Shown one piece after another: positions 6,844 through 42,717 of a stretch of 42,717 nt of DNA. The stretch covers positions 1 through 42,717 of the IMG/VR virus record IMGVR_UViG_3300009788_000167. One strand, written 5' to 3'. A program made the position numbers and the translations under genes. Source of the stretch: a virus. Numbering within the stretch: the first letter of the stretch is position 1; each line of letters begins with the position of its first letter. Under the pieces are notes generated by a model. It was not told the DNA's origin. It saw only the letters and a list, made by a program, of their open reading frames with translations, and ran no database searches.

Positions 6844-7052
6844 AACGAGCCGAGAAGAAAATCACACAGTTGCCTGTGAAACGCCGGAGCCAGGATCCCA
6901 GAATGAGGCGCCTTTACCGTGCCGTAGCAGTGTTTTCTGAGATGTACGATTTTGAAGAGAAACTCCAAGCCATCTACTACTTGGTGCACCGATTTCTTGG
7001 GCGTGACTGGTGGTCAGACATGCCGCGGCCAGAAAGGATCAACAAGAAATGA
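6840..7052 (+). CDS. Small basic hypothetical protein (70 aa)
   Basis: ATG 6840 overlaps the stop of the 47-aa gene and the stop overlaps the ATG of the lipoprotein gene. The N-terminal 24 residues are very basic (KRAEKKITQLPVKRRSQDP). The rest is a helical stretch MRRLYRAVAVFSEMYDFEEKL followed by YYLVHRFLGRDWW. It could bind nucleic acid, but no motif proves this and no family was recognised. Confidence 0.68.
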   Translation: MKRAEKKITQLPVKRRSQDPRMRRLYRAVAVFSEMYDFEEKLQAIYYLVHRFLGRDWWSDMPRPERINKK

Positions 7053-7288
7053 TACGCCTACTTCTCGCCCTGGCACTCCTCGTGTCGGGCTGCTCCAACC
7101 ATCAGCCAGCGCCCGCGGTGACTACCGTTCCGCGTTTTCCGCCCAGAGCCTACGGCATTCCGGTGGCGCACATGGGCCCGTGGGATGTTCACGGAGAGTA
7201 CGAGTATTGCCCCTTCGAGGGAGAGCAATACCAGATCTGGGCCGAGTTCGAAGCTGATTGGGAAGAAGCTCAGGAGCGAGAAGAATAG
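7049..7288 (+). CDS. Small predicted lipoprotein (79 aa)
   Basis: ATG 7049 overlaps the upstream stop. The start MIRLLLALALLVSGC is a compact lipoprotein signal peptide with a good lipobox (LVSGC), so the mature protein would begin at Cys15, be acylated and sit in a membrane of the envelope. After a Pro-rich part (QPAPAVTTVPRFPPR) it contains VHGEYEYCPFEGEQYQIWAEF and an acidic helical end. It is encoded among early replication genes, not with the lysis genes. Phage lipoproteins expressed early are known to block superinfection by altering the cell surface; that role is plausible here but unproven. An Rz1-like spanin is the alternative. Confidence 0.75.
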   Translation: MIRLLLALALLVSGCSNHQPAPAVTTVPRFPPRAYGIPVAHMGPWDVHGEYEYCPFEGEQYQIWAEFEADWEEAQEREE

Positions 7289-13124: not shown

Positions 13125-13167
13125 AGTCCTCAGCGTAACTCGCCGAGGCAGCTTCTGTCTACTCCTC
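13116..13167. terminator. Candidate bidirectional terminator between convergent operons
   Basis: The two converging genes both end in GAG-GAG-TAG-A, so 13116-13125 and 13158-13167 form a perfect 10-bp inverted repeat. Inside it, CCTCAGCG and CGCCGAGG can pair with one mismatch. The combined hairpin can form in RNA from either strand. No T-run follows on either side, so efficiency as an intrinsic terminator is doubtful. Confidence 0.4.
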
Positions 13168-13458
13168 GGGCTTCGGAGGGGCTGAGGTGCCGTTCTTATA
13201 GACTTCCTCGGCCACTTCGGTGGTCGTCTCAATGTGCCTGTCCCGCTGCCAGGCATCCACCAGGGCGAACGGCACCAGGAAGAAGACGAAGAGAGCCAGC
13301 GCCCTCCAGTGATCGATGGGGATGGTGAGCTCCGTCCCGAGGAGTGCCGACCCCAAGCCTGTGAAGAGCTCCAGGCAGATCAACCCGAACAGATAGACGG
13401 CGGCCCGAAGGAACTCCTTGGCTGTGGTCGGGAGAGACGGCAGAGGGATCTTGCTCAC
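13159..13458 (-). CDS. Holin candidate, two membrane spans (99 aa)
   Basis: GTG 13458 overlaps the endolysin stop (GTGA), so it is translated right after the endolysin and is the last gene of the late operon. Two hydrophobic segments are visible at about residues 17-41 (AAVYLFGLICLELFTGLGSA) and 51-68 (ALALFVFFLVPFALVD), separated by a short polar turn, and followed by a charged tail HIETTTEVAEEVYKNG. Size, topology and position next to the endolysin match class II holins, which form pores in the inner membrane at the lysis time. There is no family signature, so the call rests on topology and context. Confidence 0.65.
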   Translation of the reverse strand: MSKIPLPSLPTTAKEFLRAAVYLFGLICLELFTGLGSALLGTELTIPIDHWRALALFVFFLVPFALVDAWQRDRHIETTTEVAEEVYKNGTSAPPKPEE

Positions 13459-14381
13459 GCGAATAGCCGCCCAATGAGTTTGGGGAGACGGAGGAGCTTC
13501 CCGAAGAGTCCGCCGAGGCGCTCCGTCGCCAAGCTCCGGAGATGGCCGAACAACTGGCCCTGAGCAATCTCCGCCACGTCTTCACGTCGCCCAATGACGA
13601 CAGTGCCCCGTACCCGCACGGCGTACAGGCGGTTCGCCACCTCGACGCGCCCGCGGGCGAGCTCGTGAGGGCTGAGGAATCGGAGCTGAGGTTCGGGACG
13701 CCTATCAGAGCGACACAACACCACCGGCACCACGATAGCTCCGATGCCTCCGGGAAGTCGCTCATTGTCGGTCACATACTCGAACCCGGCCTCCGTCTGG
13801 AAACCATGCGGCCCCTCTTCCAGGGCTTCCACGTCTTCCAGGGACAGTCCTTCCACCTCTTCGGTGTCGTCGCTCATTTCCCCTTCTTTCTGTGGCGCTT
13901 CCGCGTCACCTTCGTTGCTCTCTGTCTCGTCCATCCCCAAGGCCGGCACCAGGCCGCCTCCGCGATCCACAAAGGCGAGCGCCTCTTCCCATGGCATCGT
14001 GCCCGCCTCGGGTCGGTGCACCTGGAAATGAAGATGTGGACCCGTGGCGTTTGGGTGCGTCTCGGGAGTCTCGTAGATAGCCGTCATCTGAATAGGCGTG
14101 CCATCCGGTCCGGGAGGCGCCGGAAATCGGAGGTTGACTTCTTTCTCCAAGCGGAGGGGCACGCCACCGGGCATATCGAAGGTGCGGACGTCCACGCCTC
14201 TGAGATCCGAATGAGGGCTCCCCGGGTCTTTGCGATACACGTCCGTGATAGTGAGCGTGAGGCCTCGAGCAGCGAGCCAGCGGGCCACCCACAGCACCAG
14301 AGCTTGAAGCCGGGCGTCTGTGCTCTGCCATTCCTCGGCATCGGTCAGCCGCTTGAATCTTAGTTCTACTTCCACGGTCAC
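13455..14381 (-). CDS. Endolysin candidate: M15-type zinc peptidase with amphipathic tail (308 aa)
   Basis: GTG 14381 follows AGGAGG by three bases. The N-terminal domain has zinc-ligand motifs of LAS/M15 peptidases: PHSDLRGVDV (H57, D64, the H-x6-D pattern) and a later GPHLHFQV (H116, H118). Such enzymes cut peptide cross-links of peptidoglycan. An acidic linker follows (about 155-190), then a beta-rich domain. The last 34 residues are an amphipathic cationic segment (ERLGGLFGKLLRLPKLIGRLF), like membrane-active peptides. An internal ATG at 13877 with GAAGGGG upstream could make the C-terminal part alone. Placement between two membrane protein genes supports a lysis role; a virion-associated lysin is possible. 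Confidence 0.72.
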   Translation of the reverse strand: MTVEVELRFKRLTDAEEWQSTDARLQALVLWVARWLAARGLTLTITDVYRKDPGSPHSDLRGVDVRTFDMPGGVPLRLEKEVNLRFPAPPGPDGTPIQMTAIYETPETHPNATGPHLHFQVHRPEAGTMPWEEALAFVDRGGGLVPALGMDETESNEGDAEAPQKEGEMSDDTEEVEGLSLEDVEALEEGPHGFQTEAGFEYVTDNERLPGGIGAIVVPVVLCRSDRRPEPQLRFLSPHELARGRVEVANRLYAVRVRGTVVIGRREDVAEIAQGQLFGHLRSLATERLGGLFGKLLRLPKLIGRLFA

Positions 14382-14429
14382 AGGCCTCCTAGGTACAGGG
14401 TACGACGGCGGCGGCGCGGTAGCCAGCAC

Positions 14430-14777
14430 TCAGAACCAGCCTCGAAAGAAACGGGCCCCAAAGGCGAGCACCTGGCCTCGCAACGATGGAGGGGTGAATA
14501 GCAGTATTACGAGGCCCACGAGAAAGCCGGTGCGCTTTGGGTTGTGCCAAGCGTAGGCAGCCAGGTTCGCCACCCACACCGATGGCGGGGCCTTCTGTTT
14601 CTTCTTGATTCCGTGGTCCTCCTCGTGCCCTTCCCGCCACTCCTTCGCGGCCTCGTGTTTCCGGATGCAGATACCGGAGCCAGTTTTCTGGGCGCGCACG
14701 TCTTTGGCGATCTCTTCGAGCTTCTTATCTTGCCGGTTGAACCGGTCAAGGATTACCCGCTGGAAAGCCTCGTCCAC
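14430..14777 (-). CDS. Lysis-region membrane protein (115 aa)
   Basis: GTG 14777 shares its G with the stop of the 31-aa gene (TAGTG). Residues 1-60 are polar and probably coiled-coil (FNRQDKKLEEIAKDVRAQK, KHEAAKEWREGHEEDHGIKKK). A hydrophobic segment GFLVGLVILLF lies at about 84-94, followed by FTPPSLRG and an aromatic basic end FGARFFRGWF. With its position just before the endolysin it may be a holin, antiholin or inner-membrane spanin, but no family signature allows a choice. Confidence 0.65.
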   Translation of the reverse strand: MDEAFQRVILDRFNRQDKKLEEIAKDVRAQKTGSGICIRKHEAAKEWREGHEEDHGIKKKQKAPPSVWVANLAAYAWHNPKRTGFLVGLVILLFTPPSLRGQVLAFGARFFRGWF

Positions 14778-14872
14778 TATTTAAGACACCCCTCCATGTA
14801 GAGTCCAAGCGCCATGGCCGCCGCGCTGAGAAGGACCATGATCGTATCACGGGCGGCGGCTCGCCAATTCAT
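14777..14872 (-). CDS. Very small membrane peptide (31 aa)
   Basis: ATG 14872 overlaps the TAA of the upstream fibre gene (TAATG) and its TAG overlaps the next GTG (TAGTG). The peptide is a basic N-terminus (MNWRAAARDT) followed by one hydrophobic segment IMVLLSAAAMALGLYM and EGCLK. Exact stop-start overlap on both sides in a lysis region is good evidence for translation. A regulator of holin timing is possible; this is inference. Confidence 0.6.
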   Translation of the reverse strand: MNWRAAARDTIMVLLSAAAMALGLYMEGCLK

Positions 14873-16332
14873 TAATTCAGAGACCTCGAAATCTCCCGCC
14901 AGTACGTCCCCTGGAATTCGACGAGCAGCACGCTATCCAGAGTCATTGCTGCGTTGCCTGCCAGTGCAAGCTGATCCGCACCTGGGCTCGCAGTGTCAGT
15001 GAAGTCGAGCGTACCGGGCAGCGTCCCCACAGTGATTTGCAGGACCATACCCTCTACGAATCCTGTACTCGTGATGGTTGCAACCGTGTTGTTACCAACG
15101 TCGCTGGTAATCTCCACGGCTCCGGCTTTGTCGTTTGGATCGATCGCTGTCGCTGCCGCTCCCAGCGTGATGGCTTCGGGTACACCGTAGGACCAACGAT
15201 TTCCGAGATCCGTCGTAACGCGCATCGAGTCAACCCCGAGAGAGTTGCGAGCGATCAGGTGCTCGCCGCCGTCACCGAGTCCATCTCCTGGCTGTAGCTC
15301 CATATCCTCTTCAGCGCCTGAGTGGTAGTCAACCGACCAGAGGTCTGCGAGAGACTTGTCAAAGCCAGCGGTACGTACTCCTGCTGCCCCGCCTACTCGA
15401 CCTATGATGAGACCGAGATGCACGTCTGGTTCGATGCTCAGGTTTGGGATGATCGTGTTTTCTCGGAAAATCCCATCCTCGTCCCAGAACGAGTTTGCGT
15501 TACCGACCCACCCGATTCGTCCTTGGCTCCCAATCCATTCGAGGCTTTCTGTCCGAGCGGAATTGGTGAAGGTGATCCGTGGATTCGTTGCAGAATTCAC
15601 GTCACCTAGCACAAGGCCGCTCAACGCCGTTAGAGCATCATTGGTGCTTCTTATAAACCACTCGGTCCCATCGCACTGCACCTCGACGAAGGAATAGTTC
15701 GAATTGAGTGAAACATTCAGAGCCCCATTAATCGTGTCGGCGCCATTACCCTCGACAACGATTGCATTCGAAGGATCATTACGGAGGATCGTTATTTTAC
15801 GCCTGGCGCTCGATGTAGCGAGAGGGAGCGTGATGATCGTACCCGACCCATCAGCTACGATCAGCTCATCACCAGATCCGACCACGATGGCAAAACTGGT
15901 GCTCTTCGATACGACTCCGGTATAGACCTCCCGGCTGAAGAGATTCCGGAGGCTATTGATTCCACTTCCGAAGTCGTCAAGGCCGTTGCTGGTGGGGAAC
16001 ATCTCGCCATTGATGTTCATTTTCCACTTGTCGACGCCATTCACGCGGAATACGATTTCAGGATTGCCGCCACCAGCGTTGCCCGTGGCCTCTAGAATCA
16101 GGTCGGTTTGGTCAGGCGAAGAGAGCTTCACGACCTCAGAGATATTCCCGGACCCGTCCGCGGTAACCTGGGCGCAGTCGAGGGCTCCACTCCCAGAGTC
16201 GAAGGCAGCGAGCTCGTCGTTACTGCAGCCCGCTAGGTCGGCTACAGCCTGTCGGAAGACCTGGATACCCTGCGCGCTCGCCTGCCCCGCCAGGGCGACG
16301 CATAGCATCAGCGAGAACACTAGACGGCACAT
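14872..16332 (-). CDS. Tail-fibre-like protein with signal peptide (486 aa)
   Basis: ATG 16332 overlaps the upstream stop (TGATG). Residues 1-20 form a classic Sec signal peptide (CRLVFSLMLCVALAGQASA, cleavage before QG). The mature part starts with two cysteines about 20 residues apart, then shows repetitive beta-structure of phage fibres: EIVFRVNGVDKWKMNINGEMFP, GSGTIITLPLATSSARRKI, a receptor-type middle (ITFTNSARTESLEWIG), and a final domain GNNTVATITSTGF with VEFQGTYWREISRS. It is probably a receptor-binding or fibre protein, yet fibres normally fold in the cytoplasm and lack such leaders. One of five successive genes with this property. Confidence 0.78.
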   Translation of the reverse strand: MCRLVFSLMLCVALAGQASAQGIQVFRQAVADLAGCSNDELAAFDSGSGALDCAQVTADGSGNISEVVKLSSPDQTDLILEATGNAGGGNPEIVFRVNGVDKWKMNINGEMFPTSNGLDDFGSGINSLRNLFSREVYTGVVSKSTSFAIVVGSGDELIVADGSGTIITLPLATSSARRKITILRNDPSNAIVVEGNGADTINGALNVSLNSNYSFVEVQCDGTEWFIRSTNDALTALSGLVLGDVNSATNPRITFTNSARTESLEWIGSQGRIGWVGNANSFWDEDGIFRENTIIPNLSIEPDVHLGLIIGRVGGAAGVRTAGFDKSLADLWSVDYHSGAEEDMELQPGDGLGDGGEHLIARNSLGVDSMRVTTDLGNRWSYGVPEAITLGAAATAIDPNDKAGAVEITSDVGNNTVATITSTGFVEGMVLQITVGTLPGTLDFTDTASPGADQLALAGNAAMTLDSVLLVEFQGTYWREISRSLN

Positions 16333-16778
16333 CAGTGGATCACCCGAAGGTTTGCGGCCACGGCAGCGGTTTCACTTTGCCACTGGAGACCATGACAGAA
16401 GACCGGGAAGGAGACAGTAAGCCCCGCCGGAATTCGCTGCACCTCTCCTAGGGTTCCAGTGGTTGTCGGTGTAGTGAGGGGAGCTGAAGCCACGCTTTCC
16501 TCTGGAGGAATGAACCTCACCAGAAGATCGTTGGTGGAGTCTTCATTCTCGATCACCACGGACTGAGAGAGGCTATTCTCTCCGAAGCCAGGTAAGTCGG
16601 AAAAATCGATGGGCTCCGCAGTCAACACATCGATGCTGGCGTCCCGACCGTAGCCACTGCGGCTCGAACGAGTGACGGGGGAGAGCGTGGTGTCTGCTCG
16701 GACCTCCCGAGCCTCGAGCACCCACAGCCCGAGGCAGAGCAACAGGGCTCCGATGTATCGGTAGCTAGATCGTCTCAT
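16332..16778 (-). CDS. Small secreted beta-protein (148 aa)
   Basis: ATG 16778 follows GGAGGAACC. The N-terminus MRRSSYRYIGALLLCLGLWV with a predicted cleavage at VRA before DT is a Sec signal peptide. The mature chain (about 120 aa) is Ser/Thr-rich with strand-like segments (SLSQSVVIENED, DLLVRFIPPEES, RIPAGLTVSFPVF), and looks like a small beta-sandwich. No family was recognised. It lies between fibre-like genes in the late operon and may be an accessory of the exported fibre set. Confidence 0.7.
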   Translation of the reverse strand: MRRSSYRYIGALLLCLGLWVLEAREVRADTTLSPVTRSSRSGYGRDASIDVLTAEPIDFSDLPGFGENSLSQSVVIENEDSTNDLLVRFIPPEESVASAPLTTPTTTGTLGEVQRIPAGLTVSFPVFCHGLQWQSETAAVAANLRVIH

Positions 16779-16788
16779 GGTTCCTCCT

Positions 16789-17262
16789 TCACGGTGTTTC
16801 TAGATCGTCGGCCTTGTTCTTGGCCATAGTGCTCTTGGCGGTCGCTTCAATTGCTGCCGCGGTGTAACTCAGTCGGGAGAGCTCCACTGCAATCAAGCCA
16901 AGGCGTGCTTGCTTCTCGCGTAGCTCCTGGATCTTGCTCGCCTTCTTGCGAGACGCTTCGCGAGCAGTCCAGCCGAACACCTGGACAATCTCCACCCATT
17001 CACCGGAACGAAGCGTCACGGTCCTCGTGGTCAGGCGCCGGTCAGAAACCGGTCCAACGGAAGGGCCTAGCAGCACCGTCGAATCGACTAGTGCTGTCAC
17101 CCACCCGGTGGCGCCCGCTCTCCAGGGAACCGAGGCAGCGACCTTCCCAGAGGGGTCAACTTGGATCAAACGCTTGTGATAATTCCGGATCGACTTTGGC
17201 GGCGCTGCGCTGGCGTTTGACAAGACCGCCAGAAGTATCACGAAGAACAGAATGCAGCGCAT
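16789..17262 (-). CDS. Secreted protein with C-terminal coiled coil (157 aa)
   Basis: The start ATG 17262 is preceded by AGGAGGGA at a good distance; reading frames opening further upstream lack a site. Residues 1-19 (RCILFFVILLAVLSNASA) are a Sec signal peptide cut before AP. The mature protein has a small beta domain of about 75 residues (RLIQVDPSGKVAASVPW, TRTVTLRSGEWVEIVQVFG) and then a charged helix ASRKKASKIQELREKQARL, likely a coiled coil. The beta domain plus trimer-like helix suggests an adhesin or fibre tip. Function is not established. Confidence 0.7.
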   Translation of the reverse strand: MRCILFFVILLAVLSNASAAPPKSIRNYHKRLIQVDPSGKVAASVPWRAGATGWVTALVDSTVLLGPSVGPVSDRRLTTRTVTLRSGEWVEIVQVFGWTAREASRKKASKIQELREKQARLGLIAVELSRLSYTAAAIEATAKSTMAKNKADDLETP

Positions 17263-17276
17263 CAGTATAGTCCCTC

Positions 17277-17588
17277 CTACAGGTCCAGGCGGTGAGTGGT
17301 GACAGTGGTCGCCATGGTCGCTTGTTCGCTGGCGTCTCGAGCGACGGCAAAGCAGATGTGACATTCACTGATATTGCAGTGGATTCGGAAGTCGGTTGCA
17401 GGGAAGAGGGTCTCTATCTCGTCGGCAAGGTTCGTGCCCCGAATGGCGTTGTCAATGTCGAAGCCACCACCCACCACGGTGTTACGGGGATAGCTGTACT
17501 CGATTCGCCCCTCACCACAGGCGAGGATTGCAGCGGACCCGAGGAGCCAGGCTAGGGCGAATACAAGAGCTTTATTCCAAGTCTTCAT
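17277..17588 (-). CDS. Small Cys-containing secreted protein or lipoprotein (103 aa)
   Basis: ATG 17588 follows GAGAGG. The first 23 residues (WNKALVFALAWLLGSAAILA) are a signal peptide; cleavage before Cys24 (AILAC) could be by SPase II, giving a lipoprotein, though the -2 Leu is atypical. The mature part has GRIEYSYPRNTVVGGGFDID and a cluster RIHCNISECHICFA with three cysteines, so together with Cys24 two disulfides would be possible if it is not acylated. No family recognised. Its stop overlaps the ribosome-binding site of the next gene. Confidence 0.68.
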   Translation of the reverse strand: MKTWNKALVFALAWLLGSAAILACGEGRIEYSYPRNTVVGGGFDIDNAIRGTNLADEIETLFPATDFRIHCNISECHICFAVARDASEQATMATTVTTHRLDL

Positions 17589-17596
17589 AGCACCTC

Positions 17597-19927
17597 TCAG
17601 CGGTACACCATTTCAATGGAATGATATCCCGCGGCCCCTCCGATTGCATTATGATCGACCGTCAGCCCGGCATTGTGGCCAGCTAGCAGGCTCGAGAATA
17701 CTGGGGCCAGGTCGATCTTCGTGAAAACGCTCACGGTGTAGGCGTAAGTCGTCGCCACGTCTGCCTCGGAATTCGTTGCGGGGTCCTCGCCATCCAGAGC
17801 GTAGTCAGTGAAGAGGTCGATATCCGCGGTTGCGTTGGTGGAAGTCGGGATCACAATGAGTTCGAGGGAGACGAGTGCATGGAAGTCGTCAGGTATCTTG
17901 AAGCTGAAATTCCCTTGCCCGTTGGCAGCGATGGAGTTCACAGCGTAATCCCCGGATACGGAGTTATAGTCAGTCGCTTCGAAGGTAATCGTCTTGTTCG
18001 TCGGGATCCAATTCACTCCGTCGAACTCCATGCGTTGCCCGGCGAGTGGCGTCGTGGTGATCATATTCACGTCGCTCATGTCGTCGATCGAGAGGAAGCG
18101 ATCGGGGAGGATGATGAGGGTCGAGACGTCCTTCGCCACTCCCACCGATACCCGGAAGGTGGTAGGGAGTGTGCCCGTCACTGCGCCCGAGACATTCTCT
18201 GATAGGTAGTAGCGGGTGTTCGGAACTAGGACCGCGCCCACGTCATCACGGAAGGTGTCGCCCCTCTCTCCGATCGTCTGGACCTGGACCAGAGTCGAGC
18301 TCAGGACCTTTTTCACGACGCCATTCACCCTCGCCGTAGCGGTTGTGTTCGCCTGCGCCTTCGAGACTTGGCCAGAGGTGGTGTCGAGGAAAACCACATC
18401 GTTCGTGGTGAGCGCGGAAGCTGTCGTCGCCAAGTAGGTGACCTGGCTCGGGTCAGTGTTTCGAAGGGCGTAGCCGAGTACTGACGCCTGGAGCCCTCCA
18501 GCTGTCCAAGCGTTGAGCCAGTGGCCTTTAGCTTCCTGATCAGAGTTGACCGTAACCCAGCAATCGTTAACCTCATCTGCCCCGTTCTCATTGCGGATGC
18601 AGATGTGGTCATCGAGGTCTAAGACTGTGACCCCGTTTTCAGTGAGGAAGAGATCAGAAGCCGTCGCTGTGTTGGTGGTCACAACACGGATTTGGGCAGC
18701 GGCGGATCCGACCGGGATCGCCGCTGAGAGGTCAATCACCTGGTCTGCGATGACCGTCTCATCCGGGAAATTTCCGGCCGAACTCCCGACTGTAAGGGCC
18801 ACGGGTTGCTTGAAGAAAAAGACATTCTCGACTTGGCTCGAGACAGTCGCTTCGACCACATATCCGTACACGACGATGAAATGCGCGTTAAATGTCTGAG
18901 CACTTGTGAGGTTCGCCTGGAAAGATTGCGTCCCTGGAGAGAACCAAGCGACCGTACTTCCAGCGCTGAAAGCGCTAGTCCCTGCGGTGACTACTCGGTA
19001 GTTAGTGTCGGACGAATCCCTTCTTACGTTGCCGCCTACTGCCCCTGTAGGAACCTCCATGCCCCACACAATCAGAGCCCCGATAGCGTTCGAAGGCGCA
19101 CCATCTTGACTCAGCTCGATGGTGACGTGTGTCGTATCTATTGGCTCCGGATCTGTTGGGCCGAAAGCCTCTTCTCGAATGATGTTTCGACCCGAGGCAG
19201 CGAAGCCCCAATCAATCCCGCTCGCCCCATCCGAGATTTGCGTCTGACCTTCGGGCGCGGGCAGGCCATCGGTTTTGGAGTTGAAATCGGCACCCTCAAT
19301 GGTTGAAGTCGAAACCGCCGTTCCACGGTTAGATCCATCAGAGACGAAGATGTGCCCGGCCGGGGCAGTGGTCGTGATGGACTCGATTGCTCCTCCACCT
19401 GAGCCCCCACCGGACGCTAGCTGAATATGAGTCGTACTCACTGCCCGACCGACTAGCACAGTCTTGATTCCGGCAGTCTCCACGGATGTGGTTTTTCCTG
19501 CTACGGCGGATGAGATGAAATAGTCCAGGCCTGTAGAGAGAACTAGCCCCGCGTCGTCAGTGATGGGCCCAATGGTCGCGCAAGTTGAAATGGTGGCGGA
19601 GGTGGTGGTGTCCGTCTTCTGGACCATGCCACCGAGCGAGCATTCCACGTTTACCAGGCTGGTGCAGATGGCGAGGTCTATCCGGTCCGTCGTCGTGTCA
19701 TGGAAGACGACGGAGCCAACGTCAAACTGGGAGGTGGTGATGTACTCCCGGGAACAAGAAGCCGCTTCCAGGATGTCCATATTCGCATTGCGACGGTCAT
19801 GGAAATTCCGGTCCCGCTTGGTGGGCTTGTTCAATTCCAGTTCGGTGGTCACCTCATTGGCAGCGAGGAGACCAGAGGCGAGCAGCAGAAAGAAAGCGAT
19901 CACTATGAAATGTCTGTATCGTGTCAT
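17597..19927 (-). CDS. Large tail-fibre-like protein with signal peptide (776 aa)
   Basis: ATG 19927 overlaps the upstream stop (ATGA), so the start is well fixed. It begins TRYRHFIVIAFFLLLASGLL, a basic n-region plus hydrophobic core with a cut near LLA/AN. The mature N-terminus NEVTTELELNKPTKRDRNFH and MDILEAASCSREY look like phage fibre attachment segments. Repetitive beta domains follow, with SGQVSKAQANTTATARVNGV and NTRYYLSENVSGAVTG typical of tail fibres. Six cysteines, four of them in the first quarter, would fit disulfides formed outside the cytoplasm. It is the largest of five consecutive genes with leaders and may be the main receptor-binding protein. Confidence 0.78.
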   Translation of the reverse strand: MTRYRHFIVIAFFLLLASGLLAANEVTTELELNKPTKRDRNFHDRRNANMDILEAASCSREYITTSQFDVGSVVFHDTTTDRIDLAICTSLVNVECSLGGMVQKTDTTTSATISTCATIGPITDDAGLVLSTGLDYFISSAVAGKTTSVETAGIKTVLVGRAVSTTHIQLASGGGSGGGAIESITTTAPAGHIFVSDGSNRGTAVSTSTIEGADFNSKTDGLPAPEGQTQISDGASGIDWGFAASGRNIIREEAFGPTDPEPIDTTHVTIELSQDGAPSNAIGALIVWGMEVPTGAVGGNVRRDSSDTNYRVVTAGTSAFSAGSTVAWFSPGTQSFQANLTSAQTFNAHFIVVYGYVVEATVSSQVENVFFFKQPVALTVGSSAGNFPDETVIADQVIDLSAAIPVGSAAAQIRVVTTNTATASDLFLTENGVTVLDLDDHICIRNENGADEVNDCWVTVNSDQEAKGHWLNAWTAGGLQASVLGYALRNTDPSQVTYLATTASALTTNDVVFLDTTSGQVSKAQANTTATARVNGVVKKVLSSTLVQVQTIGERGDTFRDDVGAVLVPNTRYYLSENVSGAVTGTLPTTFRVSVGVAKDVSTLIILPDRFLSIDDMSDVNMITTTPLAGQRMEFDGVNWIPTNKTITFEATDYNSVSGDYAVNSIAANGQGNFSFKIPDDFHALVSLELIVIPTSTNATADIDLFTDYALDGEDPATNSEADVATTYAYTVSVFTKIDLAPVFSSLLAGHNAGLTVDHNAIGGAAGYHSIEMVYR

Positions 19928-20985
19928 GTGGTGATCACCTTTATCAGGGGTTGCTGGGATCCAACTGCCTTGAAAAGGCCACGGCCATCGGAGCGACGGA
20001 GGTCCGGGAGGTGTTTGTGGTCTCTGTGGCTCGTGTCGTCTGATAGATTCTTGTCACTGGCCATAAGCCCCTGGACTATCTCAATGAGTCCACCATTGGC
20101 AGTTATCTCGCGCCACTTGTGCTCAATCTCAAAGAGCGTTGCCCGCACCAAAAGCTCAGTGGTGATTCCTTTGGTAGGGATCGGCGCAGCGTTCAGGCTT
20201 TCGAGGTACTCAGGAGAAATGCCATTCTTCAGATGCTCGTCAAGGTCTTTGATGTGTTTCGCCTTGACGCGATCCCAGAGCGTTTCTATAGGAACGGAAT
20301 ATTCGCTCAATGAACGGGCGTCAACCATCACGATTTCCTCACCAGGGGGCAAGTCCTCAATTGCCCATCCAAGCGGTACAGGCTGCGCCATCATTCGCCC
20401 GGGGTGATTTTTGTCCAAGGCTGCAAGATCATAGCGGGTGCGGTTCCATGGAACGTCACCACAGGCCCAGATTTTTCTGATCTCGTTCGTTGCCCTGAGC
20501 CTTCGGACAAATACACTGTGCCCAATGTCAGGGATGCTGCCAAAACCCCAGGGTCTAGAAGCAGCGACATACCTGACAATCGTTTCCACTGAAAATGCTT
20601 GGTTTGTTCTCAGGACTTCTGAAAAGCCAATGAACGCCGTACTTGCTGAAGCCGCGGTACTCTGGTTTCCCCAGCCGTAGTTGATTGAGGCCAGCGCGTT
20701 CGTTGTCCTGCCCCGCACCGCGAAAGCAAATTCGGCATTGGTAACCACATCCTGCTCCACAGGGCTACCGGCTGCAGGTGCAGTGGCCTCCGTTTCTGTG
20801 GCGGTTTTCAGTTCTGCCTGTCCCACGGCCGCTGCCAGAATGGATAGCTGGTTGACCAGGTCAGTTCCGATTGCTGTACCTGTAGGGTTGAGGAAGTCGA
20901 GGCGATTCCGAATGGCGTTTCCCACTGTGGTGGTCACTGGCGCATCCGCCGCCACCATTGCCGCCGTGAGGGTATCCCAGGCCAT
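19924..20985 (-). CDS. Tail/baseplate-associated protein (353 aa)
   Basis: ATG 20985 was chosen because it overlaps the upstream TAA (TAATG) after GGGGGTGAG. The N-terminus AWDTLTAAMVAADAPVTTT and AIRNRLDFLNPTGTAIG is of the kind found at the base of phage fibre proteins. Residues about 60-150 are Ala/Thr-rich beta structure, and from about 190 the chain becomes more ordered (PWNRTRYDLAALDKNHPG, PPGEEIVMVDARSLSEY). It has no signal peptide, unlike the five genes downstream. Probably a virion protein joining baseplate and fibres; exact role unknown. Confidence 0.65.
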   Translation of the reverse strand: MAWDTLTAAMVAADAPVTTTVGNAIRNRLDFLNPTGTAIGTDLVNQLSILAAAVGQAELKTATETEATAPAAGSPVEQDVVTNAEFAFAVRGRTTNALASINYGWGNQSTAASASTAFIGFSEVLRTNQAFSVETIVRYVAASRPWGFGSIPDIGHSVFVRRLRATNEIRKIWACGDVPWNRTRYDLAALDKNHPGRMMAQPVPLGWAIEDLPPGEEIVMVDARSLSEYSVPIETLWDRVKAKHIKDLDEHLKNGISPEYLESLNAAPIPTKGITTELLVRATLFEIEHKWREITANGGLIEIVQGLMASDKNLSDDTSHRDHKHLPDLRRSDGRGLFKAVGSQQPLIKVITT

Positions 20986-21347
20986 TACACTCTCACCCCC
21001 CGTTTCACGGTACACACGGTGATCAATTGGGGATACCGACAGAGGAGTTTCGGAGCCCAGTTGTAGGGGTGCTCCCCAATCCCCAGCCGCGGCGCTTCAC
21101 CGTCGTTCTCCTTCGCTGCCTTCGGAGATCCGCACACCAGCGCCTCCCCGTCCCCCTTTTGGTGGGGACACGCCTCACAGCGCTTCCGGTCGACCGTCTT
21201 GTTCGTCTCCGGACACCACCAGCCATCAGTGTGATACTCACAGTCCTTACAGTTCCACTGGTCACGCTCTCCAGCCTCGAGAGGAATGAGCGCGTCGAAA
21301 ATAGGGCACCGGACCAGGAGCTCAATTTCTACTTTAGGTTTTATCAT
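20985..21347 (-). CDS. Cys-rich, probable zinc-binding protein (120 aa)
   Basis: ATG 21347 overlaps the stop of the baseplate gene (ATGA). Nine cysteines are present, several in pairs: NCKDCEYHTDGWWCPE (C33, C36, C45) and KRCEACPHQKG (C57, C60), plus C72, suggesting one or two zinc sites. The remainder is YNWAPKLLCRYPQLITVCTV. There is no signal peptide, so the cysteines more likely bind metal than form disulfides. Small metal-binding proteins are common near phage baseplate genes, but I do not recognise this one. Confidence 0.65.
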   Translation of the reverse strand: MIKPKVEIELLVRCPIFDALIPLEAGERDQWNCKDCEYHTDGWWCPETNKTVDRKRCEACPHQKGDGEALVCGSPKAAKENDGEAPRLGIGEHPYNWAPKLLCRYPQLITVCTVKRGVRV

Positions 21348-23290
21348 GGCGGTGCGAACACGTGAGACGGGTCCGCGTCATCTCCTAGAGTCGGCGTGGC
21401 GGCAGCGCTCGAGAACCACGCGTAGTTTTCAGTGTCGGCTAGTAATGCATCGTCGAAATCTACCCCGTCAAGACGCACCGGGCCGAACTTCCTGTACTCG
21501 TTTTGTTCGAAGCGGGTGTCTGCCAGCACCACATTCATGATGTTTGCCGAGGGGTCGAAGCCAGTCCCGATCACCTCGTAGATAGCATCCTCGACGCCGT
21601 AGAACCCACCCTCCAGGTCAGGGATTTGCGGGTGCGTCACGCGCACGAGCTCACCGACTTCCGTGTCCTGCTCACTGGCAGTACAGCGGATAGGGATAGG
21701 CGGCGGGCCAGAGGAGGACCGGAACAGGTGACGCTGCTGGGCAATGTCAGCAACCACGGTGGTATTGATCACCTTGGATTCGATGAGACGGGTACGCTCC
21801 CCATACTTGGCGATAGAATCAGCATCCAGCAGGGGTGTGGCTTCCACGTCGAACTCATCGGTTGCCACGTTGAAGCTGTGCCGCAACCGAATCCGATTGA
21901 ACAGGTCATCCTTGTTGTGGGTGAAATTCGGGAAGTCCCGGAGGATGTTGGTGCGGTAGTCGAGCAACCGGAGCACCCCGGCACCGATGACCGGCTGTAC
22001 TTTGACGAAGGACAGTAGCCCCCGATTGGTGATCTTGGGGACCAGCCCGAGATCTCGGGTGATCTCCTTCACCAGGGCGAGGAACTCCACAGCCTCTGGG
22101 AATACCCGAGTGATGAGGTCCGCGGGCGTATCTACATTGATGACATCTTCAATCTCGGAAACGGCGAAGAGATCCTGTGGAATCGCTGCCCCTCGATCAG
22201 CGGAGAGGACGTCATAGATTCCATTCGTGCCGTTGCCCGTGGAGGTTCCAATCTGCAGAATAGCGACGAGAGGATGTATGGGCCCGAACGTGATAGGCAC
22301 GTCATCGGTGGCATCCTTGAACACCTCGACTCGGTAACGGTCGAGGTTATCCGCTACCTGCAGCGTCCACATATTTCCCGCCCGGTGTGGAGCTATTCGG
22401 ATAGTGCCCTTGTGGATCGGCTGGAAATTATCATCCGTCTCATCGTCTCCAGTGAAACCCTGGGAGATGTCCATGGCGCGTCCCAGTTGAGCGAACTTCC
22501 CTGCGTCATGGATGAAAGGCTCACCCCCGAAGAATTCGCCGAACTCTGCCCAGAGCCCGCCCCAGCCACCTTCCGCCTCGTGGTCAACGATGGGAACTGA
22601 AGCGCTGGCGATGGAGAGAATTCCCTCCTGTGCTCGGCTCCGACTCATCCCCACGGTGGGGGGTTTCATCCAGAACTTTGTAGGCGCTCGAGCCCCCTTC
22701 AGTCGCCGAGAGGCGTAACGGAACGGGTGCGCCGTCAACGCATCCCACAGGATCCCTGAGAGGAGATCTCCCGCGGCGTCAAAGTTCGTCCCCAGTGCCA
22801 CGTAATCGATGGTGTCGAGGAAATCCGGAGCCCCTACCTCGGACTCTGTGACTCCAGTGGGCTGGAGTTCCTGCGGGAGCATCTCCGTAAGGGCAAGGCG
22901 CAAGTGGGTCCAGCCCACGGAGAGGATGGAGTCCGCGAAGATCCACTGTCGATAGTTCGCGGGATCGTTTCCAAGGCGCACCAAGCCGGACGCCACGTCA
23001 GCGAGTGACGAGAGGAAATTGTAGACGCGCCAGTAGCGATCATTCGAGAGATCCAGGCCCGCGGTGGAGGTGGATATCAGGGCGCTCGCTCCTCCGGCGA
23101 TCTTGTCGTACGAGATGGCGGCGGTACCCTCTTTGATCTCCGCGGCCACTGTGGTGAGGTTGCCGACACCCGAGGGCCCCAGAGACCAGCCGGCGGTTGA
23201 GTCCAGAGACAGACGCACGTTCCCGCCGAACTCTCCCACGAAGACGCGGGGCAATTCGTTGTCGGAGACACGGTCATCGAAGAGAGTCAC
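21344..23290 (-). CDS. Tail/baseplate hub-like protein with jelly-roll N-terminus (648 aa)
   Basis: GTG 23290 overlaps the upstream stop (GTGA). Residues about 30-200 form a carbohydrate-binding-like module (GWSLGPSGVGNLTTVAAEI, EGTAAISYDK, and a late LDTIDYVALGTNF) similar in pattern to the upstream 371-aa protein. The middle and end (HKGTIRIAPHRAGNMWTLQV, TNRGLLSFVKVQPVI, then GELVRVTHPQIPDLEGGFYG) resemble tail-hub proteins with OB-like and strand-rich domains, which open the tail tube at the baseplate. Its position two genes after the tape measure supports a tail-tip or hub role. Confidence 0.72.
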   Translation of the reverse strand: MTLFDDRVSDNELPRVFVGEFGGNVRLSLDSTAGWSLGPSGVGNLTTVAAEIKEGTAAISYDKIAGGASALISTSTAGLDLSNDRYWRVYNFLSSLADVASGLVRLGNDPANYRQWIFADSILSVGWTHLRLALTEMLPQELQPTGVTESEVGAPDFLDTIDYVALGTNFDAAGDLLSGILWDALTAHPFRYASRRLKGARAPTKFWMKPPTVGMSRSRAQEGILSIASASVPIVDHEAEGGWGGLWAEFGEFFGGEPFIHDAGKFAQLGRAMDISQGFTGDDETDDNFQPIHKGTIRIAPHRAGNMWTLQVADNLDRYRVEVFKDATDDVPITFGPIHPLVAILQIGTSTGNGTNGIYDVLSADRGAAIPQDLFAVSEIEDVINVDTPADLITRVFPEAVEFLALVKEITRDLGLVPKITNRGLLSFVKVQPVIGAGVLRLLDYRTNILRDFPNFTHNKDDLFNRIRLRHSFNVATDEFDVEATPLLDADSIAKYGERTRLIESKVINTTVVADIAQQRHLFRSSSGPPPIPIRCTASEQDTEVGELVRVTHPQIPDLEGGFYGVEDAIYEVIGTGFDPSANIMNVVLADTRFEQNEYRKFGPVRLDGVDFDDALLADTENYAWFSSAAATPTLGDDADPSHVFAPP

Positions 23291-24402
23291 AGGACGAACT
23301 CCACCCCCTCAACGGTGAAGGGGACAGCCTGCCCGGTCTCCTGTAGCGCTGGGCCCTGTGAGATCTTTCCCAGGGATGGGTAGTAGCCAGCGCTTCGCAC
23401 CTTGACTCCAGTGGTGTGCGGCATCTTGAGACCCTGCTCCAGGGTGACGACTAGGCCAGCGCGGGACTTCACCTTGACCATTTCCACCTCATCGAAGAGA
23501 TTGGGCCCCACCCGCAGGGAGACCCCAGCGTCCCCGAGAAACTCCACGTCAGTGGAATCTGCCAGGGGGAGGGTGCGACCCCGGACGGAGGTATCCGCGG
23601 TTAGCGTGGTGTCCACGAGCTCATGGGCCGGGTACGCTACGCCCCAGCCTTTCGAGCGAGCCACGAACTGGGAGAAGTAGCGGAGGCTCTCCTCGAGGTG
23701 ACGGAAGAGATCAGATTCATTCCCCACGAAACGGGCTCGCTTGAGTCCAAAACGGATCCGCTCGTCCCGTGCTCGAAAGTCTCGCTGGAAAGCGTCCTTC
23801 GCTTGCTTGAAGGAGGCATCCTCTTTGTGGTTCCGGATCCATGAGTCCAGGGGAGGGACTTGCAGCCGCTCACCGTCGAAGATGAGCACTGCTCCATGGC
23901 GTACGTTCCCCTGGCTGCGAATCTCAATGGCGTCGAACTTGAGATTGATGAAAGTAGCGCCCGGGGCGGTAGGCGTGGCTCGCAGTTGCAAGGCCAGGAG
24001 TTGCCGACGAAGCTCCGGAGTAGAAGGCGTTCCACTCTGCGCCGTAGGGGCAAGCAAGCGCAAGTCCAAGGCATTCCAGCCGGCGGCCGGCGCTGCGATT
24101 TCGTATTCGTCCCAGATGTCTGGAATTCCCGAGCCATCGAGTCGGTACCCGAGACGCACCGCTACGGAGGCAATGTTGGTGAAATCCACATGGTGACTCC
24201 GGAAACGTAGGTGTGGATCGTCGAGAGATACAATGAGTTGCTGGACGTCCACGGCCGCGGGAAGAAGCTTGGTCACGAACACCGGAGATTGTGCCGTAGC
24301 ATCTTTGTCGATCTCCAGGGAGTTGGTGCCTTGCTGGCGCGTCGTGGAAAGTTCCAGGTTTGTGACGGCCGCTCCTGGTACCCACCCGATCAAGCTGTCC
24401 AT
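23287..24402 (-). CDS. Distal tail protein-like, with jelly-roll N-terminus (371 aa)
   Basis: First gene after the tape measure, the usual place for the distal tail protein. An in-frame TTG at 24414 is possible, but ATG 24402 starts the domain MDSLIGWVPGAAVTNL. The first 190 residues follow the pattern of carbohydrate-binding jelly-roll modules (QQGTNSLEIDKD, IASVAVRLGYRL, TFINLKFDAIEIR). The rest contains ARDERIRFGLKRARFVGNE, LDTT-like repeats and VKVKSRAGLVVTLEQGL, a beta-rich tail-tube-like part. A sugar-binding module here could help attachment to the cell surface. Assignment is by position and general pattern. Confidence 0.65.
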   Translation of the reverse strand: MDSLIGWVPGAAVTNLELSTTRQQGTNSLEIDKDATAQSPVFVTKLLPAAVDVQQLIVSLDDPHLRFRSHHVDFTNIASVAVRLGYRLDGSGIPDIWDEYEIAAPAAGWNALDLRLLAPTAQSGTPSTPELRRQLLALQLRATPTAPGATFINLKFDAIEIRSQGNVRHGAVLIFDGERLQVPPLDSWIRNHKEDASFKQAKDAFQRDFRARDERIRFGLKRARFVGNESDLFRHLEESLRYFSQFVARSKGWGVAYPAHELVDTTLTADTSVRGRTLPLADSTDVEFLGDAGVSLRVGPNLFDEVEMVKVKSRAGLVVTLEQGLKMPHTTGVKVRSAGYYPSLGKISQGPALQETGQAVPFTVEGVEFVL

Positions 24403-24406
24403 GGTG

Positions 24407-26686
24407 TCAAGCAATGCCTACCCGCAAATCTGTCGCCAGGACCCCGAGGAATTCGTCCACGGGGTCACCTCGATTTCGGAACAGATTGATGAGACCGCGT
24501 AGAATAGGTGCCGCCTCCTCCATCGAGATAGAAAATCCGGAGGACTCCTGTGCCTGTCCCCCGACTACCAGAGTCAGGCTACCAATGGTGAAACCCCCTC
24601 CGCCCAGCGCTTGGGCCGTATCCGTCGCTGAGGTGACCCGCTCACCCCCTTCGAAGTTCACGAGCTCCGGGCCACCCTCACCCACGACAGCCAAGCCTCG
24701 GGGAGCGGAGGCAACGCCCTCCTGGAATCCGGGTATGCCCAAGAGCCCCCCAAGTTTTCCAAGGAGCTTCTTTCCCAAGCTAGCCACCAAGGCGCGCTTT
24801 GCATTCTGAGCCAGGGTGTCCCCGAACCCCTTCCCGAAGAGATCTCGTGCTTTGCTGACGTCGCCTGAAAGGATACCGGCCACAGCACCCTTGAATGTCC
24901 CTTGAAAGATGGTGCCCGCCAGGCCGCCGGCACCGCGCCCCGTAGGTTTCCCGGTCGCCTTCTTCCCACCAGTTATGATTCCCTCCTTCGTACCAGCGGC
25001 AGCGATATTCTTCCAGAACTTCCGAAACTTGTCGCCCTGCTCTTTCAGTTCGGCACCGCCAAAGGGACCAATCCCCCCAGCACTGACGCCACCCGCTCCG
25101 CCGGCAGCGCCTCCACCGATAGCACCAACCCCTGCCCCACCGAAGCCACCTGGACCAAATGGGTTCGCTACTACTCGGCCAGCAACGTTCGGGACGAATA
25201 ACTCCGGGCCGCCCTCACCAACTACAGCGGTTTGTCCCGCGGCGACAGGGCCACCCGCCTGCCGGAATATCAAGCCAGCGCCGGGGATAAGATTCTTCAG
25301 GGTATTTTTCGCCGCTTCTAGGGCGAGTTGCTGACCACTGGCACCAGCGCCCCCCGTAACAGGGCCTCCTGCTCCCCCAAGCACAGCCCCACCCGGAAGA
25401 CTTCGCAGCGCATTCTTGACCACGGTGAGGCCAAGCTCTGTACCCCCACCTCCTCCCAGGGCTGCAGCAGTCGCCGCCTCCCCACCGGGGCGGATGAATT
25501 GCTCCGCGGCAACAGAGGCAGCCCCAAGGCCCTGAGAAATGAACTTGATCCCGTCCGCCGTCTTCTCGATCACCGAGGCCAGGAGTTCCGCGGTGTCCTG
25601 GATGCTGCCCATGTTTTCTTGCATGAAATTCAGGGCATCCCGCACCCGAGGCATGAGCTTCTCACCGACAGCGATTCCGATTTTCTCCATGGACGCCCGG
25701 ATCTCATCGGCCTGGGCAATTACGGTGCTCGAGGTTTTTTCAAATGCTTCTTCCGTCGTGGTGGCAGAATCCTTTGCCGCCTCACCCATTGCAGCGAAAT
25801 CAGCCTCGGCCACCTCGAGGTTTCCAGTGAGGATCTCAAGACCGGTGGTCGCTTCTACTCGGGTGAAAAATTCTGTGAGACCTGCCTCGGCTCCTTCACC
25901 GGCAACCTTGACCCGCTTAAGCCACTCCTCGAAACCCACTTCTTGGAGTTGCTTGATTTCGATTCCGGCTTCTTTGAGCTGGAGATCTCCGGCACCCTTC
26001 TTGACCGCGGTGAGGATGGCGCGAAGGCTTGTCACAGCCTCAGCAGTAGATAGACCAGACTTGGTCATGGTGGCCAGCGCCGCGGCTACCTTGTCAAAGG
26101 GGAGCCCCACGGACGCGGCAGAAGCAGCCACCTTACCAATGGCAGACGCCAGCTCTGGGAAGGTGGTCTTACCCCGCTTCACCGTCTCGAACATCAGGTT
26201 CGAGATGTTGGTAGCTTTGCTCGCCTCCAGGCCGTAGGAGTTGAGCACGGACGTCATGGCATCCACAGCCGTGAATGTGTCCGTGAGTCCGGCCTTCGCC
26301 GCCTTGGCCGAGGCAGTCAGAAACTCGATGGCCTTGGTGGGCTCGATGCCGGCGGAGATGGTCTGGTAGAGACCCCGAGTAAGATCTGTAGCGGTCCCGA
26401 GTTCCGGCGGGAGCGCTAGAATTTTCTTTTTGAGATTCTCTAGCGTCTTCTCAGACTTGGGCCCGAGGAGGGTGTTGACGTTCTGGAGTTCTTTCTCGAA
26501 CTCAGCGAAGGCCTTGACGCTGGTTACGCCCACACCAATGGCAAAAGTGCCGACAGCCTTACCGGCTCCGAGGAACGCGCGGCTCATCGTTCCCCCGGCC
26601 TTCTTGGCCGTGGAGGTCGAGCCCTTTAGATTCTTCTCGAATTTCCCGGTGTCAAGATCAAGCTCGACAACCAGCACATTCGCCAT
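24407..26686 (-). CDS. Tail tape measure protein (759 aa)
   Basis: ATG 26686 lies four bases after the stop of the tail chaperone T ORF. The N-terminal 400 residues have the TP901-type tape-measure pattern: DTGKFEKNLKGSTSTAKKAG, FAEFEKELQNVNTLLG, TRGLYQTISAG, FPELASAIGKVAASAASVG and GLSTAEAVTSLRAILTAVKKG. The C-terminal half is Gly/Ala-rich with repeated AVVGEGGPELF and AVVGEGGPELV motifs found in many tape-measure ends. The protein sets tail length and enters the cell envelope during injection. At about 1.5 angstrom per residue, a tail near 110 nm would be expected. Confident family call. Confidence 0.92.
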   Translation of the reverse strand: MANVLVVELDLDTGKFEKNLKGSTSTAKKAGGTMSRAFLGAGKAVGTFAIGVGVTSVKAFAEFEKELQNVNTLLGPKSEKTLENLKKKILALPPELGTATDLTRGLYQTISAGIEPTKAIEFLTASAKAAKAGLTDTFTAVDAMTSVLNSYGLEASKATNISNLMFETVKRGKTTFPELASAIGKVAASAASVGLPFDKVAAALATMTKSGLSTAEAVTSLRAILTAVKKGAGDLQLKEAGIEIKQLQEVGFEEWLKRVKVAGEGAEAGLTEFFTRVEATTGLEILTGNLEVAEADFAAMGEAAKDSATTTEEAFEKTSSTVIAQADEIRASMEKIGIAVGEKLMPRVRDALNFMQENMGSIQDTAELLASVIEKTADGIKFISQGLGAASVAAEQFIRPGGEAATAAALGGGGGTELGLTVVKNALRSLPGGAVLGGAGGPVTGGAGASGQQLALEAAKNTLKNLIPGAGLIFRQAGGPVAAGQTAVVGEGGPELFVPNVAGRVVANPFGPGGFGGAGVGAIGGGAAGGAGGVSAGGIGPFGGAELKEQGDKFRKFWKNIAAAGTKEGIITGGKKATGKPTGRGAGGLAGTIFQGTFKGAVAGILSGDVSKARDLFGKGFGDTLAQNAKRALVASLGKKLLGKLGGLLGIPGFQEGVASAPRGLAVVGEGGPELVNFEGGERVTSATDTAQALGGGGFTIGSLTLVVGGQAQESSGFSISMEEAAPILRGLINLFRNRGDPVDEFLGVLATDLRVGIA

Positions 26687-42581: not shown

Positions 42582-42717
42582 CTAGAACTCCTCGCGCTTT
42601 GTTTCATAGGGAAGCATGAGAGGGTGACATGGCGCGTCCCGGCTAGTCACGCCGAGACACCGGACCTGCACCTCCAGCAGCCGGAGATACTGGAGCATCC
42701 ATTGATCCATGCCGGAC
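42582..42717 (-). CDS. DUF1643 protein, 3' end repeated at the right edge
   Basis: The last 45 residues of the DUF1643 gene described at 1-506, including the HPLMLPY motif and the stop TAG at 42584-42582. Bases 42595-42717 duplicate 123-1, so only 42594-42582 is new sequence. Joined across the circle it makes one gene of 172 codons. Confidence 0.85.
   Translation of the reverse strand, partial: SGMDQWMLQYLRLLEVQVRCLGVTSRDAPCHPLMLPYETKREEF
42595..42717. repeat. Terminal direct repeat, right copy
   Basis: Identical to bases 1-123. It should be counted once in a circular map. Confidence 0.95.

Follow-up and report, generated by a model that had tools for sequence, protein, structure and literature searches.

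Five consecutive late genes of a tailed, siphophage-like virus encode proteins of 776, 103, 157, 148 and 486 aa that each begin with a Sec signal peptide, an observation that is confirmed and statistically strong. The five open reading frames are present at 14872-19927 on the minus strand of IMG/VR record IMGVR_UViG_3300009788_000167, the whole 42,717-nucleotide stretch of which is referred to here as the window. The genes follow the tail genes in the order of transcription, are in part coupled by stop-start overlaps, and the last of them encodes a fibre/tailspike-type domain. In kind these are phage fibre-locus proteins; what is new here is their export signals. The reading that we favour, though tentatively, is that of a Sec-exported fibre/tailspike set that would be matured in the cell envelope and would join virions at lysis.

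Organization of the late region

The first 123 bases of the window recur exactly at its other end (1-123 and 42595-42717), and the record is thus a complete genome, circular or terminally redundant, of about 42.6 kb, with a G+C content of 60%. The plus strand carries the early genes, including those for a DNA polymerase, a helicase, a PD-(D/E)XK nuclease and a DNA methyltransferase (PF01555; 7258-8232). The late genes are on the minus strand and run, in the order of transcription, from primase, terminase, head morphogenesis, neck and tape measure through further tail genes to the five-gene block, which a lysis cassette follows. Leaderless tail genes, for the tape measure (24407-26686) and for proteins of 648 and 375 aa, occupy 21344-26686 (minus strand), and a leaderless 363-aa late protein in tail-tip position is encoded directly upstream of the block (19924-21015, minus strand). 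Amid the tail genes there is also a gene for a 120-aa protein with nine cysteines (20985-21347, minus strand), which has a zinc-ribbon-like look and matches no family above threshold. Directly downstream of the block, before the lysis genes, lies a 31-aa mini-ORF with one hydrophobic segment (MNWRAAARDTIMVLLSAAAMALGLYMEGCLK; 14780-14872, minus strand). The lysis cassette (13159-14777, minus strand) comprises a 115-aa single-TM protein, a 324-aa M15-like peptidase and a 99-aa two-TM holin-like protein; the M15-like assignment of the 324-aa candidate endolysin follows the motifs SPHSDLRGVD...HLHFQV, and profile searches with the lysis-cassette proteins gave no match above threshold. With a leaderless tail-tip gene on one side and an M15-like endolysin/holin cassette on the other, the block has the usual position of tail-fibre genes.

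Nothing close to the late region turned up in a DNA-level search of phage records, and close relatives were returned neither by searches of IMG/VR with the 776-aa, 648-aa, TerL, tape-measure and 363-aa proteins nor by searches of phage records with several proteins and sub-domains; no relative of the five-gene block was found in these searches. Relatives of the DNA polymerase (L002-L005) were considered as possible relatives of the block and set aside, as they have only early genes in common with this phage.

The earlier note had fixed the five starts by stop-start overlaps or strong ribosome-binding sites, and this holds throughout. The 776-aa gene (17597-19927) starts at 19927 in an ATGA overlap with the stop of the 363-aa gene, and the 486-aa gene (14872-16332) starts at 16332 in a TGATG overlap with the stop of the 148-aa gene. 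Shine-Dalgarno sequences precede the other three starts: GAGAGGTG before the 103-aa gene (17277-17588, start at 17588), AGGAGG before the 157-aa gene (16789-17262, start at 17262) and GGAGG before the 148-aa gene (16332-16778, start at 16778). The 157-aa start is internal to a 191-aa ORF, the upstream part of which overlaps the 103-aa gene.

Signal peptides

All five products are predicted to be exported. With a slash at the predicted cleavage site, the leaders are MTRYRHFIVIAFFLLLASGLLA/ANEVTT in the 776-aa protein, AILA/CGEG at the end of that of the 103-aa protein, MRCILFFVILLAVLSNASA/APPK in the basic 157-aa protein, MRRSSYRYIGALLLCLGLWVLEAREVRA/DTTL in the 148-aa protein and MCRLVFSLMLCVALAGQASA/QGIQ in the 486-aa protein. 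A Sec signal peptide is defined by a basic n-region, a hydrophobic core of about 7-15 residues and a small-x-small site; all five leaders answer to this at the level of the controls, the site of the 148-aa protein being weak. Leaders were scored with a home-made scorer built on n-region charge, an uncharged hydrophobic core and a small-x-small cleavage site, and nine well-known E. coli leaders, their sequences typed from general knowledge, served as positive controls. The block proteins score 13.85 (776 aa), 11.82 (103 aa), 15.83 (157 aa), 12.17 (148 aa) and 13.60 (486 aa), a range of 11.8-15.8 as against 10.3-15.2 for the E. coli leaders under the same scorer; the next-best late gene of the window reaches 8.15, and all other late genes are at 8.2 or below.

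The pass threshold of 11.5, which was set after the block scores had been seen, is reached by 5 of 510 ORFs in 14 control phage records (longest run, one) and by 16 of 1062 ORFs in 68 endolysin-bearing viral contigs (longest run, two), a base rate of about 1.3% with no comparable run among the 1572 control ORFs. Since the base rate is only 1-2%, the run of five is not due to chance. Given the longest run of two in the second set, a general tendency of leader genes to form runs close to endolysin genes was considered and rejected. The leaderless late proteins of this phage, cut into 4613 pieces, and the mature parts of the block proteins, cut into 1333, yield not one piece that reaches 11.5. 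The central claim of the earlier note, five consecutive late genes with Sec signal peptides, is thereby borne out, and sequence and statistics together give good support to Sec export of the five products. In the literature, PMC5723332 reports no more than one or two leaders in a genome. In Marinobacter phage PS3 (L019, 19354-19767), a 137-aa leader-bearing gene lies directly before the tape measure gene.

Cleavage of the leaders is predicted from their sites. The earlier note had given five plausible sites; four are canonical small-x-small, the 148-aa site is the weakest of the five, and ILA/CG in the 103-aa sequence can also be read as a lipobox of the permissive form (I at -3, L at -2, A at -1), not of the strict form L-[AS]-[GA]-C. 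For this protein, lipoprotein processing may be no less likely than processing by signal peptidase I. Alternatively, the N-terminal segments could stay uncleaved, as inner-membrane anchors or as virion tail-tip segments that insert into the target membrane at infection. Some phage proteins do keep hydrophobic N-termini in the membrane, signal-anchor-release endolysins among them (PMC6116005), and the 148-aa protein has a charged c-region, EAREVRA, and a poor site. The canonical sites of the other four, the cores of 13-19 uncharged residues and the basic n-regions stand against this alternative, which is judged improbable; leaders fit better than membrane anchors because the cores are short and no membrane-like segment was found in the mature parts of the five proteins.

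Composition and search results for the five proteins

The mature parts contain six (776 aa), four (103 aa, counting the putative lipidated one), zero (157 aa), one (148 aa) and three (486 aa) cysteines. Relative to the leaderless virion-type proteins (8/4766), the block (14/1557) is enriched roughly fivefold in cysteine (Fisher p 1e-4), with a p value that depends on the choice of comparison set: 0.003 when the 103-aa protein is left out and 0.026 when the terminase and the Cys-rich 120-aa protein join the comparison set. The Cys pairs that the earlier note had seen as suiting oxidising folding stand only for the 776-aa protein and possibly for the 103-aa protein; the disulfide argument is weakened because the numbers are odd or zero in three proteins.

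None of the five proteins has a significant match in PHROGs, Pfam, NCBIfam or PADLOC, the last giving no anti-phage defence identity for any of them, and no hydrolase domain is apparent in any. The 776- and 486-aa proteins have no match among PDB sequences, and for the 776-aa protein the searches were also blank in phage records, IMG/VR and GTDB genomes. For the 776-, 103-, 157- and 148-aa proteins no relatives of any kind were detected, and thus no fibre homology. The mature part of the 776-aa protein (pI 4.4, 21% Ser+Thr), taken with its locus and coupling, would be consistent with a fibre nature; its mature N- and C-termini were considered as common fibre motifs, and the search did not bear this out. 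The mature 157-aa protein has a pI of 10.3. The structure model of the 148-aa protein is all-beta, of low confidence and too poor for a fold search.

The fibre/tailspike domain of the 486-aa protein

Two of the proteins had been called fibre-like from their composition; for the 486-aa protein this is upheld by domain homologues and fold matches, and for the 776-aa protein no match in any database searched stands behind it. Weak tblastn matches cover aa 144-227 of the 486-aa protein in three phages, and aa 140-231 (15640-15915, minus strand) are 41% identical to a leaderless 271-aa protein (leader score 1.0) in viral contig L025 (IMGVR_UViG_3300035698_003040), the neighbours of which belong to a conventional tail module where the tape measure and tail fibres are also encoded. 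Of the other homologues, those in L015 and L017 match PHROG baseplate and tail-fibre families, that in L017 also matches PF07880 below the family cutoff, and all four phage homologues (L015, L016, L017 and L025) are leaderless by the scorer. Canonical cytoplasmic tail fibres have no signal peptide, as is the case for these homologues and not for the 486-aa protein.

The AlphaFold model of the 486-aa protein, built on a three-row alignment, has a mean pLDDT of 43, with the better or matched parts at about 60-70. Its fold matches include the tailspike depolymerase gp83 of Solidus (E 7e-6) and the anchor region of CBA120 TSP4 (E 2.8e-4); the matches of this fold search span E 7e-6 to 1.4e-3, with low TM-scores and from a low-confidence model. 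Against the tail-fibre models in BFVD there are 93 matches with E <= 0.001. Judging by the model and the homologous tail-protein domains, we class the 486-aa protein as tail-fibre/tailspike-type. An internal duplication was suspected in it and found no support.

In the fold search, with the low-confidence model, the beta domain of the 486-aa protein matches the anchor and assembly domains of the T4 gp10-like/CBA120 TSP4-N group (PMC8825819), and its gene lies in a tail-fibre locus; it differs in having a leader and in that no enzymatic beta-helix was recognised in it. To our knowledge, the known members of this group belong to the virion and have no Sec leader.

The sole cellular relative found is a 465-aa protein of a Bacteroidales MAG (L026, 2347-3744), a bacterial exoprotein with a signal peptide, a region matching a PHROG tail-spike family and a C-terminal fibre domain of the 486-aa type, encoded on a bacterial contig and not in a phage late operon. 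Sec export of the fibre domain is hence not unique to this phage, because the Bacteroidales protein has a leader of its own. That an exoprotein carries this domain also favours an alternative in which the block is a non-virion set, for which leaders would be normal: exported fibre-type proteins would stay on or be shed from the infected cell and would block receptors or decorate the surface, with superinfection exclusion, or progeny kept from sticking to debris, as the outcome. The leaderless 363-, 648- and 375-aa tail-tip proteins could then be the virion's own receptor binders, and the lipobox of the 103-aa protein recalls the small superinfection-exclusion lipoprotein of T5. However, late genes directly before lysis would come late for superinfection exclusion, and crossing an outer membrane, if present, needs a further route that is not encoded in the block; we consider this alternative, the main rival of the favoured reading, unlikely. 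The earlier note had put forward both functions, and its interpretation is supported in part. The T5 lytic-conversion lipoprotein, Llp, is phage-made and exported and blocks FhuA. Its likeness to the 103-aa protein lies only in the latter being a putative lipoprotein, and it is a single gene as against a five-gene block here; T5 receptor and exclusion structures are presented in PMC9586334.

Relation to lysis

The block adjoins the lysis cassette and includes a candidate lipoprotein, and no spanin pair was recognised elsewhere in the window, all of which would suit lysis-linked envelope proteins, spanin-like or outer-membrane-disrupting, in which case the 486-aa protein would resemble fibres only incidentally. 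This is very improbable in view of the size and Ser/Thr-richness of two of the proteins (776 and 486 aa), the tailspike fold matches and the absence of a spanin-type pair of membrane protein and lipoprotein; neither an overlapping nor an embedded spanin pair was seen when the block and the region of the early lipoprotein were read through. The early region has a small lipoprotein gene (7052-7288, plus strand; MIRLLLALALLVSG/CSNHQPAPAV...), with a mature part that is Pro-rich and then acidic. It was dropped as a spanin, the overlapping upstream gene being without a membrane segment, and its product could be an early envelope protein, e.g. an exclusion factor.

Sec-exported endolysins (fOg44 Lys44 and the SAR endolysins; PMC6116005) are likewise made late by the phage and engage the host Sec machinery before lysis. 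They are murein hydrolases, unlike the block proteins, and the endolysin candidate of this phage is leaderless by the scorer, unlike fOg44 Lys44 and the SAR endolysins.

Possible assembly route and implications

The favoured reading of a fibre/tailspike set that joins virions would run as follows. The five genes would be expressed together as a late set and would specify proteins of fibre/tailspike type along with accessory ones. All five products would leave the cytoplasm through the host Sec machinery and then lose their leaders, to lipoprotein signal peptidase in the case of the 103-aa protein (should it be a lipoprotein) and to signal peptidase I in the other four. Maturation would follow in the envelope, where disulfides might form in the 776-aa protein. 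Expressed just before the lysis genes, the proteins would gather outside the cytoplasm a short time ahead of lysis, would most likely combine via domains of the tailspike-anchor type such as the 486-aa protein has, and would join virion tails as the particles cross the breached membrane. We infer actual export and cleavage, disulfides and, above all, virion attachment.

For joining the virion speak the position between tail-tip and lysis genes and the ATGA/TGATG coupling; against it, tails are built in the cytoplasm. Two points favour it over secreted blockers: the locus, and the role of the matched domain type in CBA120, where, according to PMC8825819, TSP4-N both brings the tailspike complex together and fastens it to the baseplate. 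The open-licence literature searched gave no precedent for Sec leaders on tail-fibre or other virion proteins of tailed phages, nor for fibres that join the tail after Sec export, which does not prove that none exists. In its full form, two-compartment assembly, with head and tail made in the cytoplasm and a multi-protein fibre/tailspike complex that is Sec-exported, folded in the oxidising envelope and attached only during lysis, is rather unlikely.

The usual view is that tail fibres fold in the cytoplasm, under reducing conditions, and are added to the virion in that compartment. If true, an all-leader fibre-locus operon would mean either two-compartment virion assembly or an extracellular phage fibre set that manipulates adsorption. 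Either outcome would alter genome searches for receptor-binding proteins, because leader-bearing genes in tail loci are easily dismissed as host-like extras, and envelope-matured phage adhesins would become a testable class.
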